DNA from: Anadara kagoshimensis
Taxonomy: Eukaryota > Mollusca > Bivalvia > Arcoida > Arcidae
Length of the DNA: 64,000 nucleotides
Reading direction: 5' to 3'
Assembly: GCA_021292105.1 (NCBI GenBank)
Contig: CM037869.1
Location: 2,637,001-2,701,000, forward strand
The translations under genes and the position numbers were made by a program. The notes under the pieces were generated by a model. It was not told where the DNA came from. It saw only the letters and a program-made list of their open reading frames with translations, and made no database searches. How positions within the stretch are numbered: the stretch's first letter is position 1; every line of letters starts with the position of its first letter. Of the stretch, positions 53,155 through 63,919 are shown one piece after another.

Positions 53155-54030
53155 TTTACAGTACATAGAAGTAGGTCTGCTGTGGCAAGGTCAATATAAG
53201 CAGTCTTTACTTTATTTACATAGAAGTAGGTCTGCTGTGGCAAGGTCAATATAAGCAGTCTTTACTTTATTTACATAGAAGTAGGTCTGCTGTGGCAAAG
53301 TCAATATAAGCAGTCTTTACTTTATTTACATAGAAGTAGGTCTGCTGTGGCAAGGTCAATATAAGCAGTCTTTACTTTATTTACATAGAAGTAGGTCTGC
53401 TGTGGCAAAGTCAATATAAGCAGTCTTTACTTTATTTACATAGAAGTAGGTCTGCTGTGGCAAAGTCAATATAAGCAGTCTTTACTTTATTTACATAGAA
53501 GTAGGTCTGCTGTGGCAAAGTCAATATAAGCAGTCTTTACTTTATTTACATAGAAGTAGGTCTGCTGTGGCAAGGTCAATATAAGCAGTCTTTACTTTAT
53601 TTACATAGAAGTAGGTCTGCTGTGGCAAGGTCAATATAAGCAGTCTTTACTTTATTTACATAGAAGTAGGTCTGCTGTGGCAAGGTCAATATAAGCAGTC
53701 TTTACTTTATTTACATAGAAGTAGGTCTGCTGTGGCAAGGTCAATATAAGCAGTCTTTACTTTATTTACATAGAAGTAGGTCTGCTGTGGCAAGGTCAAT
53801 ATAAGCAGTCTTTACTTTATTTACATAGAAGTAGGTCTGCTGTGGCAAGGTCAATATAAGCAGTCTTTACTTTATTTACATAGAAGTAGGTCTGCTGTGG
53901 CATAGTCAATATAAGCAGTCTTTACTTTATTTACATAGAAGTAGGTCTGCTGTGGCATAGTCAATATAAGCAGTCTTTACTTTATTTACATAGAAGTAGG
54001 TCTGCTGTGGCATAGTCAATATAACCAGTG
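53155..54030. repeat. 55-bp satellite array, about 16 units
   Basis: Near-identical 55-bp units ('tagaagtaggtctgctgtgg', then 'tcaatataagcagtctttac'). One position pair distinguishes unit types, in order: caagg, caagg, caaag, caagg, caaag x3, caagg x6, catag x3. The first and last units are truncated. The low divergence indicates recent expansion. Confidence 0.95.
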
Positions 54031-58980: not shown

Positions 58981-59182
58981 TCGAAAACTGATTAAGTTTG
59001 CCGAAAGTCGGTTGTTTTTCTACGTCACTCTGGTCATCTCGACCATTCACGAACTAACCGACTTAATAAAGGTGAAATCTTGATTGGGTCGTAAAACTCC
59101 ATTACTCCACTCTCATGTCTGCCGGACTAGAAGATTGATTAATTCTACCTTCTCTTTACAGGAACATACAAAGTGTATAACA

Positions 59183-62100
59183 ATGACATCACATCAGACA
59201 AGAGACCTACCTATAGACAGAGGCTGGGCATGGGTAGTGTGTGCAGGTAAAATTGCTAATTACGAAAACATTTTGCGGTTACTACGGGTTTTCACATGTG
59301 GCGGGTGTAACTGGCTAAACAGGAGATACGTAACCTTCCGGAACACCCGGCCTCACGTGCACTTCCTTGGTGGAAGTTTACGTGTCAGTTTTAAAACTTA
59401 TACGTTGCTTTGGGATGGTGATTTACACATGGAATATTTGTTTTTGATTGGCTTAATGTTATTTTGAATATAATTGACGTAAGTTATTCCGTGTTGCTTT
59501 CAATCTCAATTTTGGTTTTACACGTGGAAGGTGTACCTAGCGACACAGGAGGTTATCCGGAAGCACCCTGAAATTGACCATGGACTGGTATGTTTTTTTT
59601 TGACTCTTTGATAACATATTTTTGTTTTAACTCGCATAAACATTTTTTTAAAATAAATCATCACAAGATAATAATCAAAATAAATAAAAATGTTAATAGG
59701 TGCATAAACATGTACAACAACTATGAATTGACTATTTGGCAAAATAAGGCTTTTTGTTACAACATGTTTCGTTGAAATATTTCTGTTTTGAGGCGTGGTT
59801 AAGTCGTTTTGTATTTTTTGTTACAGCATGTTTCGTTGAAGTTTTTCTGTTTTGAGGCATGGTTAAGTCGGTTTGTATCTTTTTGTTACAGCATGTTTCG
59901 TTGAAATATTCCTGTTTTGAGGCATGGTTAAGTCGGTTTGTATCTTTTTGTTACAGCATGTTTCGTTGAAATATTCCTGTTTTGAGGCGTGGTTAAGTCG
60001 TTTTGTATCTTTTTGTTACAGCATGTTTCGTTGAAGTATTCCTGTTTGGCGGCGTGGTAAAGTCGTTTTGTATTTTTTTGTTACAGCATGTTTCGTTAAA
60101 GTATTTCTGTTTTGAGGCGTGGTTAAGTCGTTTTGTATTTTTTGTTACAGCATGTTTCGTTGAAGTTTTTCTGTTTTGAGGCATGGTTAAGTCGTTTTTT
60201 TTATCTTTTTGTTACAGCATGTTTCGTTGAAGTATTTCTGTTTTTCGGCGTGGTAAAGTCGTTTTGTTTCTTTTTGTTACAGCATGTTTCGTTAAAGTAT
60301 TTCTATTTTGAGGCGTGGTTAAGTCGTTTTGTTTTGTTTTTTTTTTTGTTACAGCATGTTTCGTTGAAGTATTACTGTTGGAGGCGTGGTAAAATCGTTT
60401 TGTATCTTTTTGTTACAGCATGTTTCGTTGAAGTATTCCTGTTTGGCGGCGTGGTAAAGTCGTTTTTTATTTTTTTGTTACAACATGTTTCGTTGAAGTA
60501 TTTCTGTTTTGAATCGTGGTTAAGTCGTTTTGTATCTTTTTGTTACAGCAAGTTTCGTTGAAGTATTTCTGTTTTGAGGCGTGGTTAAGTCGTTTTGTAT
60601 CTTTTTGTTACAGCATGTTTCGTTGAAGTATTCCTGTTTTGAGGCATGGTTAAGTCGTTTTGTATATTTTTTGTTACAGCATGTTTCGTTGAAGTATTCC
60701 TGTTTTGAGGCATGGTTAAGTGGTTTTGTATCTTTTTGTTACAGCATGTTTCGTTGAAGTATTCCTGTTTTGAGGCGTGGTTAAGTCGTTTTGTATCTTT
60801 TTTGTTACAGCATGTTTCGTTGAAGTATTCCTGTTTGGAGGCGTGGTTAAGTCGTTTTGTATATTTTTTGTTACAGCATGTTTCGTTGAAGTATTCCTGT
60901 TTTGAGGCGTGGTTAAGTCGTTTTGTATCTTTTTTGTTACAGCATGTTTCGTTGAAGTATTCCTGTTTGGCGGCGTGGTAAAGTCGTTTTGTATCTTTTT
61001 TGTTACAGCATGTTTCGTTGAAGTATTCCTGTTTGGCGGCGTGGTTAAGTCGTTTGGTATCTTTTTGTTACAGCATGTTTCGTTGAAGTATTCCTGTTTG
61101 GCGGCGTGGTTAAGTCGTTTGGTATCTTTTTGTTACAGCATGTTTCGTTGAAGTATTCCTGTTTGGCGGCGTGGTAAAGTCGTTTGGTATATTTTTTGTG
61201 GAATACCTAGAAGCCTATGACACTACAGCATCAAACGTCTCATTGATCATATCTGTACAGTTTATAATGTCCAGTGTAATAGGTAAATATACGCATACGT
61301 TTATAACTATCAATTCGAATTGTCTTTTAATAAATTTAATTCGTTTAATGATTTTTCAATCTCATTCAGGAGAAATTCATTGATATGGAGACGTCACCAG
61401 CAATAGGGGAAATGGTAGAAACATTTACCTTTGATATGCGTCAGGGTAACGTTTCAGGGAGGGTGTTTAACGTCCCAAGCCTTACGTGACACGGGACATC
61501 GATTTTTAAGGTCTCTTCTGAAGTTCCCTGTGACTTTCATTCCTGAATGCCGAGTGCTTGGCGAAAGAACAGTCGATTTTAATTTCAAGTCTCGATCAGA
61601 TCCCGACTCGAACCCACGATCTCCCACATACTAAGCGAGCACTCTAGCAACTGAGCTACCGTAGTAGTTGATCACATTGTAGGCGAACGCTCTAAATTAG
61701 TGTTTAACATTTGATATTCCCAGGGATTATAAAAATTACATGCCAAACAACCCTCTGCAAAATCTAAAGCAATATTGATTACTAGATAACCCCAATGGTG
61801 ATTTCAATGTTAATTGTATCAACAAAGAAACTAGCTGTTAGATGACCAGTGCAATGACTTAATGTCTTACCACTTTGACACAACTTTATATTCGGATAAT
61901 ACAAGGAGTTTATACACAAATCAGTGAACTCAATTTTCACTTCGTAACCGATTTCTTAAGACCCAACTCTCCTGCCGAGCTGTGTTCTGCTTTTAAATTT
62001 ACATGTAGTTTTTCGCGTTCAAATAATACTTCTTTAGTTTTATTTTGCCGTCTTTTTTAGGATTATTAGCCCTGACCATTGGACCCTTGTTTTTCTCACA

Positions 62101-62640
62101 TCGATGTCTGACAATTTTTGGCGGGATTATGTGTTCGTCTGCCTATGTTGTAAATGCCTATGCTCCTAGTATATCTGTTGTCCTCGTCGGAACCGGCATA
62201 CTGTACGGTAAGTAATCAGTAAGTGAATCTAAAATCTCACCATAACTTTGATCACAACTGTAATAGCTAACTAAATACATGTAGTCTCTTCGGGGCAAAT
62301 GCCTGCTTAGGCGACATCGCATCCGGGGCAAAGTACTCGATGTATTTTAAGTCCAACAGTGCCATGTTACATTTATTCTCAATTTTGATTACACGACTAT
62401 GGGGAGTAGCTTGCTTAACGTGATGTGCTTACACTTCCTGATCACACCCGGTCTCTTTTTCATGGAATTCACGTGTTTTAACTTTAGCTACCAGTTTCAA
62501 AGGTTTTACATAGGTTTGGGATTGTGATCTGAATATTGACTGTTGTGCTTCGTTTTGATCAAAGGGAATGAACGCAATATTTTCAATTTGTAACATATGT
62601 ATACATTTGCCGCTTTCACAGCTTGTGATGTGCAGTAGCT

Positions 62641-62689
<49 letters not shown>

Positions 62690-63919
62690 ATTTGTTTACT
62701 TTTTCAAACAATTTTTAAATACATCGTCCTATTCTCGTTTCAGGAATAGGTGGATCATTTACGCATGGACCTGCAACTATCATGATCGGTAAATACTTTA
62801 AAAAAAGACTTGGATTTGCAAATGGCGCATTTAAAATCGGAGCAGGACTCGGAAGTTTTGCGTTCCCGCCAATTCTTCGTTACCTGTTAGATACCTATGG
62901 ATTGCAAGGCACACTTTTAATTGTATCAGGGCTGTTGTTGAATATCATTCCATGTGGCGCACTTCTACGACCGATTGAGTTTTATCAAAAGACAAACAAA
63001 GAACAAGATAAAGACACAGAAAAAGAAGATTTGTTAAAACCGCGTGCACTAAAAGAAAACACGAAAAACGTACAGGAAAATATCAAGAACGGAAATGGGT
63101 ATATGGAGTTATTTCCCTTTGCTTCAAGTGACAATATTTCTAAAAATGAATATACAAGAGTTAGGACTTATACCGAATCTGATTATAAACCAAAAACAGA
63201 AATTAAAAAATCCAAACCACATGCTAACCATTTCTTAGATTCTTTATCCACAAATAGTGCGGCTCTATGTGGAAGTGTAGGTGATGTGTGCGGAAGTATT
63301 CCCTTCATCGACAAGACACGAAAAGAAACCATTACAAATAACGATAACAAAAATGATGTCAATTCTGATATACAGACCAAATCGGCATATACCGATGACT
63401 ATAAGGATGATAAAAAGACGAAATCTATTAATATAAAGGAAATTTTAAAGACGATATTTAACAGAAAACTGTTACGCAATAAATTATTTATACTTTTCTT
63501 GGCATCAACGTCGTTAGGTTTATGTGGCACAGCTTTAATAAATAGTTTTATTCCTCCACATGCAAAAGATATCGGTATAAGCGACCAAAATATTGCTATT
63601 TTAATATCAATCTTTGGAGGTGCAGATTTACTGGGGAGATTTTTAATGGCAGTAATTGCAGATCACTGCGTAAGACGATATGCATTGTTAGGTTTTGTGA
63701 TGGTCGTTGCAGGCGTAGTGTGTCAGTTGATTGCTTTCTTACAGACGTTCTGGAGTCTTGCATTATTTGCTTCCATAACGGGTTTGTGTTCTGGAGTTTA
63801 TTTTGCTGTTATCGCTGTTGTGTTAATTGATTTTGTTGGTATAGAACATCTGTCCGGAGGATATGGTATTTGTCAGTTAATTAATGGTATGACACTAACG
63901 GCTGTATCGCCTCTCCTAG
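59183..63919 (+). CDS. SLC16 / monocarboxylate-transporter-like protein, 3' end outside window
   Basis: Coding exons seen: 59183-59246, 61139-61282, 62061-62207 and 62744-63919; GT-AG introns, phases consistent, 510 residues so far. A 5' untranslated acceptor sits just before the start ('tctctttacag', ending 59160). Residues 12-17 (DRGWAW) are the family signature before helix 1, normally [DE]G[GS][WF][GA]W; Arg replaces the first Gly. Helix 1 reads CFVEVFLFGGVVKSFGIFFV. The second half of the N-domain has GKYFKKRLGFANGAFKIGAG. A long hydrophilic loop (about residues 202-354, rich in Lys/Glu/Asp/Asn) separates the two six-helix halves. The C-half begins LFILFLASTSLGLCGTALIN and runs to CQLINGMTLTAVSPLLG at the last donor. 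The substrate cannot be told; many invertebrate members are orphan solute carriers. Intron 1 carries a minisatellite made from its own exon 2 start. Confidence 0.92.
59285..59460 (+). repeat. Penelope-like 3' end in SLC16-like intron 1
   Basis: 'cacatgtggcgggtgtaact', 'taaccttccggaacacccgg' and 'cttccttggtggaagtttac', ending 'aatatttgtttttgattggc'. Confidence 0.75.
59510..59605 (+). repeat. short Penelope-like 3' fragment with internal deletion
   Basis: 'ttttacacgtggaaggtgta' and 'ggaagcaccctg' run directly into the terminal 'tggactggtatgttttttt'. Confidence 0.6.
59751..61190 (+). repeat. minisatellite of exon 2 acceptor plus exon start, about 22 units
   Basis: Unit of about 64-67 bp: a T-rich tract, 'tgttacag', then 'catgtttcgttgaagtattc' and a 'ggcgtggttaagtcgtttt' end. 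The final unit, at 61126-61190, is the genuine start of coding exon 2, whose acceptor AG is at 61137-61138. Unit length varies mainly in the T run. Most upstream copies have 'ttttgaggc' where the real exon has 'tttggcggc'. The copies nearest the exon (from about 60950) are the most similar to it. Confidence 0.95.
61365..61668 (-). repeat. tRNA-headed SINE in SLC16-like intron 2
   Basis: On the minus strand the head is 'tagctcagttgctagagtgc' (A box, near 61658) and 'cgtgggttcgagtcggga' (B box, near 61608). The body has 'actgttctttcgccaagcac', and the tail reaches 61370. Confidence 0.8.
62315..62560 (+). repeat. Penelope-like 3' end in SLC16-like intron 3
   Basis: 'tggggagtagcttgcttaac' and 'acacccggtctctttttcat' in family order. 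It begins within the RT tail region ('ggcaaagtactcgatgtatt', diverged). Confidence 0.65.
62646..62687. repeat. GA microsatellite in SLC16-like intron 3
   Basis: About 21 uninterrupted GA repeats. Confidence 0.95.

Follow-up and report, generated by a model that had tools for sequence, protein, structure and literature searches.

Introduction

Tandem repeats known as mirage minisatellites have been described in amphioxus, in Adh3, the globin genes BflGb6 and BflGb9, TnC and PGBD5 (PMC3087553, PMC3902484). In the accessible text of these two reports, regular splicing is said to be undisturbed by the repeats, and a role in the creation of introns is proposed. Within the literature searched (partial in coverage, without bioRxiv preprints and with few subscription papers), no boundary-spanning minisatellite was recognised outside amphioxus. 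Here we describe such repeats in a mollusc, where they occur in at least two unrelated gene families, starting from a window of 64,000 nucleotides of the genome of Anadara kagoshimensis.

As far as the amphioxus accounts are accessible, the ladder of repeats in the window resembles the mirages in being a tandem repeat over an exon–intron boundary with splice signals in its units, and it has the layout of BflGb6, that is, the 3′ end of an intron together with the 5′ part of the next exon. Mirage copies are homogenised between neighbours and unstable in number; in the window ladder, neighbouring units are the more alike. The differences are that the host is a bivalve, from another phylum, and that the window ladder has 22 units of about 65 bp, whereas the units of BflGb6 measure 150-160 bp and are given as 6 in one haplotype and 3 in the other (PMC3087553). 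Splicing of the amphioxus mirages is reported to be regular, while the window ladder is known here from DNA alone. The ladder is thus probably a mirage minisatellite, apparently in a phylum new for this kind, probably neutral, and situated in a genome where ladders recur. The first-pass annotation of this DNA had called the structure unusual, which holds against the textbook, but less so beside the amphioxus cases, as their accessible text presents them, and the further ladders of the same genome.

Intron gain by tandem genomic duplication (the AGGT model, with the potato RdRp gene as an example; PMC4974935, accessible text) also starts from a short tandem duplication involving splice signals. 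We rejected it for the window, where the copies lie inside an existing, lengthened intron and no open isoform retains a decoy.

A tandem array of exon starts in an SLC16 gene

When the ATG exon (59183-59246) was joined to 61139-61282, 62061-62207 and 62744-63919, an open product of 510 residues was obtained, which matched MFS_1 in Pfam (E 7.1e-37), MCT2 (E 9.4e-38) and MCT1 (E 1.8e-29) in PDB, and, among bivalves and other animals, proteins with MCT names. The SLC16/MCT match spans the N-terminal half. By these matches the host gene is an SLC16 (monocarboxylate transporter) gene, with its last exon outside the window, at about 785-928 of stretch L017. Among the protein matches the best, P0001 (80% identity over 95%), comes from a 1813-base cDNA-like contig and starts inside the true exon, so the upstream junction is outside its reach. 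An annotated protein of Tegillarca granosa (KUTeg_011571, P0003) has its start close to the equivalent of exon 4 (MTIGKSCYTTRVYT), which looks like an annotation that missed the exons before it; a ladder in the corresponding intron of that species may be one explanation of the late start. Gene models across ladder-bearing introns may break in general, which is a warning for annotation.

In the intron ahead of the true exon, TRF reported a tandem array at 59750-61196 (period 65, 22.1 copies, 91% matches). Cutting at the acceptor gave 22 head-to-tail units, mostly of 65-66 bp (starts 59763, 59827 ... 61074, 61139), each combining an acceptor region with the opening ~55 nt of the SLC16 exon, with a consensus close to CATGTTTCGTTGAAGTATTCCTGTTTTGAGGCGTGGTTAAGTCGTTTTGTATCTTTTTGTTACAG. 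Among the 21 spacings, 64 bp occurred three times, 65 bp 11 times, 66 bp five times, and 67 and 72 bp once each. Twenty-one units are decoys and unit 22 opens the true exon of the MFS_1/MCT protein, in agreement with the first-pass annotation, which had read about 21 decoy acceptors, an exon boundary amplified in tandem within the intron and the real exon in the last unit. Its further statement that ttacag stands in every unit applies to 20/22 units; before units 1 and 12 the sequence is TTACAA, leaving AG intact at 20/22 acceptors.

Recursive (ratchet) splice sites read AG directly followed by GT. The ladder is similar in placing several acceptors in one intron, and it was set apart from such sites since its unit junctions join A(G/A) to CA in 22/22 units. 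GTAAAG inside some units (directly after GTG) is a possible weak donor, with a base other than G at +5.

A 23-mer over the acceptor found 22 matches with at most three mismatches, whereas 100 shuffles that kept dinucleotide composition averaged 0.00. A 25-mer version, searched at up to two mismatches in the 1.115-Gb genome, gave at least 22 forward matches, all at the window locus; one further 2-mismatch match was found on contig C4, and the backward control also gave one. A DNA search of the genome with the ladder sequence returned at least 16 places, all at the window locus. Together with the TRF array and the unit splitting, these searches establish the ladder as real, and a dispersed satellite is ruled out as far as they reach, the counts being lower bounds. 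An assembly that had inflated or partly invented the units is very unlikely: long arrays are hard to assemble, and the accessible text on amphioxus mentions an aberrantly assembled mirage in the draft genome (PMC3087553), but the units carry individual variants, the array sits within a 59-Mb contig, and independent ladders of other sequence and period stand in other genes.

In the intron 5′ of the ladder, 59290-59449 has about 10 other matching places in the window at 68-82% and represents a dispersed repeat. The window also holds a 55-bp array at 53162-54029 (15.8 copies, 99% matches), apparently very recent.

Table 1 Features of the window gene (window positions) and of exon-edge ladders in other genes (positions in the named stretch)
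Feature	Position	Strand	Description and basis
Upstream exon	59162..59246	+	Start codon ATG 59183; phase 1; donor GTAAAA at 59247; direct reading: TTTACAG before, CAG then GTAAAA after
Original intron end	59751..59762	+	TTTTTGTTACAA; first TTTTTGT copy and dead acceptor (AA); sequence reading
21 decoy units	59763..61138	+	Unit 12 acceptor (60482-60483) also dead (AA); 19 decoy acceptors with AG; TRF and unit splitting
True acceptor region	61110..61138	+	All in unit 21: candidate branch site TTAAG (A at 61113, -26), pyrimidine tract TTTTTGT (61127-61133), AG; sequence reading and linear-search rule (PMC1431707, accessible text)
True exon	61139..61282	+	144 nt; encodes CFVEVFLFGGVVKSFGIFFVEYLEAYDTTASNVSLIISVQFIMSSVIG; second TTTTTGT copy 61193-61199; donor GTAAAT at 61283; reading and protein matches
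Next coding exon	62061..62207	+	147 nt
Large coding exon	62744..63919	+	1176 nt
L053, homologous exon start	L053:5881-6946		13 acceptors at 83 bp; own sequence and period
L055/L051, exon 3 end			39 donors GTGAGTAT at 80-86 bp
L051, exon 4 start			17 acceptors by exact pattern
L028, exon 5 start	L028:585-1550		11 acceptors
L056/L023, close duplicate of the L055/L051 gene	G000 C13:58246000-58253900		6 donors; at least 5 exon-4 acceptors (3 in L056, 2 in L023)
L070 (P450), decayed donor ladder	L070:1266-1440		GT kept in copies 1324 and 1384, lost at 1440
L082 (P450), acceptor ladder	L082 62-534	reverse	At least 5 copies at 118 bp; runs to stretch end

Proposed origin of the unit at a word shared by intron and exon

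The intron flank ahead of unit 1 (AAGGCTTTTTGTTACAA) and the true exon (GGTATATTTTTTGTGG) have in common the 7-nt word TTTTTGT, which lies in the polypyrimidine tract of the intron and in the Phe-Phe-Val codons of the exon. The unit is the stretch from the intron TTTTTGT to the exon TTTTTGT, repeated 22 times, with the complete exon only after the last copy. In every unit after the first, the pyrimidine tract consists of the exon's Ile-Phe-Phe-Val codons fused to the intron TTACAG. A T-rich tract had been noted in each unit at first pass; it is present, but its source is copied exon (GGT ATA TTT TTT GTG), not copied intron. As we read the sequence, the likely branch site TTAAG, whose A lies ~26 nt before the exon, equals the exon's Val-Lys codons, so that the region directly ahead of the true exon is derived from exon codons except for its last few bases.

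In human introns, a linear search takes the first AG 3′ of the branch site, and one lying less than 12-15 nt away may be skipped, according to the accessible text of PMC1431707. By this rule, as far as that text gives it, unit 21 should contain the branch site used with the true acceptor. Both the branch site and the pyrimidine tract of that acceptor would then now be unit-21 copies of exon codons, and the intron would end in a copy of the gene's own exon. The array may have started by slippage or end-joining at TTTTTGT, with later growth and homogenisation presumably by ordinary unequal exchange. The length of the shared word counts in favour of this reading: over window 1-53000, words of at least 7 nt were shared by 13 of the 37,980 end-pairs spaced 65 bp apart, and by 7 to 15 per about 38,000 at the other seven spacings tried.

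Splice signals might attract duplication through words they share with nearby codons, making exon edges hot spots. Two of five SLC16 ladders have the shared word in a splice signal, the TTTTTGT pyrimidine tract in the window and the GAGTAT donor in L055. In the alignment, as we read it, the other three share just 2-3 nt, so the word-seeded route is not general. For a control outside the family, 28 P450 exon pieces were taken from 97 matches, picked for their spread over contigs and not at random. Clear ladders were seen in two of them: L070, with a local score of 51 versus at most 27 in 2000 shuffles, and L082. A third flag, in L069, came from a weak and ambiguous self-match and was left out of the clear cases, and a TRF array near the P450 exon of L063 was read as intronic and not exon-derived. 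In the self-duplication test, 3/56 P450 edge sides were flagged (two of them clear), against 16/400 random one-sided positions in window 600-58000, the query windows of the two sets differing slightly (-40/+30 against +/-35). No enrichment of duplication at exon edges was seen in this comparison. Exon edges do not appear to be preferred; more likely, a general tendency to tandem duplication also reaches them and the result is tolerated; hot spots are an unlikely account.

Choice of acceptor and consequences of decoy use

Local strength cannot explain the choice of acceptor, since the pyrimidine count over -20..-3, which is 13/18 positions at the true site, is equalled or exceeded in all 19 AG-bearing decoys, and decoy 21 is identical to the true site from -77 to +37. 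The true site is set apart by its downstream context (the rest of the exon and the donor at 61283) and by its distance to the upstream donor. As only these differ, exon definition is the most economical account: the gene would be spliced normally at its last acceptor, 61139 being picked because it alone has the remaining exon and the donor 61283 within exon length. If the search for an AG instead ran linearly from a branch site of the original intron, upstream AGs would be favoured, which counts against this reading. Acceptor use is here read from sequence, and on that footing we consider it likely that the ladder is an exon-boundary minisatellite of the mirage kind, neutral, with the last acceptor used through exon definition and any misuse ending in nonsense transcripts. 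The ladder requires no selected function. Since its copies match each other in their immediate flanks, any influence of position and of the downstream donor on splice-site choice stands by itself at this locus, and this ladder and similar ones offer a natural test of how the right site is chosen, a long-standing question.

The effect of misuse was assessed by joining the upstream exon in turn to each of the 21 upstream sites. None of them (0/21) gave an open frame through the true exon, and stops appeared at residues 30 to 135. The coding frame is intact in the true unit, while 13/21 decoys carry TGA in frame at one glycine codon, and one further decoy, unit 10, is frameshifted. Frameshift or nonsense products would be the predicted outcome of decoy use, and occasional use of an upstream acceptor would lead to a premature stop and presumably nonsense-mediated decay.

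In-frame units could in principle extend the transporter by added helix-1 segments, as the first-pass annotation had suggested from an in-frame pair near 60949-61070. That pair is real (units 19 and 20), and units 17-18 are also joined in frame, but reading on from the pair goes out of frame and ends at a stop ahead of passage through the true exon, so that for the window gene the extension is refuted at the level of the reading frame. No database protein matched the unit-19 isoform (0/5 candidates, E <= 0.001). In the paralogue L028, use of two of the decoys would make the protein longer by 27 or 54 residues without loss of frame; even so, a protein-extending repeat is extremely unlikely.

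Decay and homogenisation of the units

Adjacent units are more alike than in shuffled order (permutation p 0.0016), and similarity to the true exon increases toward it (Spearman -0.60, p 0.004), with no signal of a higher-order repeat at lags 2-12 between units. The cluster evolves in concert. Over 52 columns, unit 5 differs from the true exon at one site, unit 11 at two, and units 19-21 at one each; the distant units 5 and 11 thus match it roughly as well as units 19-21 do, and exchange over distance probably also occurs. When the block around the acceptor was compared with the remainder for reduced variation, p was 0.16, 0.67, 0.19, 0.04 and 0.08 for 12, 16, 20, 24 and 26 columns, respectively; this is not a convincing trend, although a weak constraint on the decoy acceptors may exist.

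Exon-edge ladders in SLC16 paralogues

Further ladders were found in SLC16 paralogues of the same genome (Table 1). Units of the L053 ladder are almost identical, all 12 decoys are closed by a stop, and the coding part of the unit carries 4 differences from the true exon, by our reading all of them synonymous. Joined to exon 4, none of the 38 decoys of the L055/L051 donor ladder is open; in the exon-4 ladder of L051, 15/16 decoys are closed and one is open within exon 4 but out of frame. In L028, read to L028:1700, 8/10 decoys are closed and the last two are open in frame. The self-duplication test flagged 2 of 30 SLC16 loci, L028 and L046 (the window gene); it covers the ends of the matched piece only, so that the exon-4 ladder near L022 was missed. 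An array is absent from the homologous exon of the L052/L024 paralogue and from exon 4 of L025, in the L053 gene.

Exon 3 of L056/L023 differs from that of L055/L051 at 2/144 nt by our reading. The duplicates have 6 and 39 donors and at least 5 and 17 exon-4 acceptors, respectively, the window locus being known from one assembly, and these counts suggest that copy number changes fast between duplicates. A reader might take this as regulation, with upstream acceptors used at a real rate, nonsense transcripts made and unit number tuning the amount of functional transporter. The strong difference between the duplicates would suit such a scheme, as would the 19 AG-bearing decoys of the window with pyrimidine counts not below the true site and the stop met from all 21 upstream sites. 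Stops are, however, expected in most frame-shifting, unconstrained insertions and show no sign of design, 2/10 decoys of L028 are open, and the amphioxus mirages are reported, in the accessible text, not to disturb regular splicing (PMC3087553, PMC3902484); we regard this tuning as improbable. A broader form of the idea is similarly doubtful, namely that ladders at exon edges are so frequent in this genome as to form an architectural layer of its genes, with dozens of near-identical sites per intron, copy number shifting between recent duplicates as a dial on productive splicing via nonsense-mediated decay, and the true site found only by exon definition. The neutral mirage-like ladder stays the preferred reading.

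The L055/L051 gene departs from the amphioxus mirages in the number of copies, which reaches 39 donors, and in that a single intron bears a donor ladder at one end and an acceptor ladder at the other. Within L055:1765 to L051:7400 (G000 C13:58159964 to about 58168100), the 39 donors stand at the start of this intron and the 17 acceptors (exact pattern) at its end.
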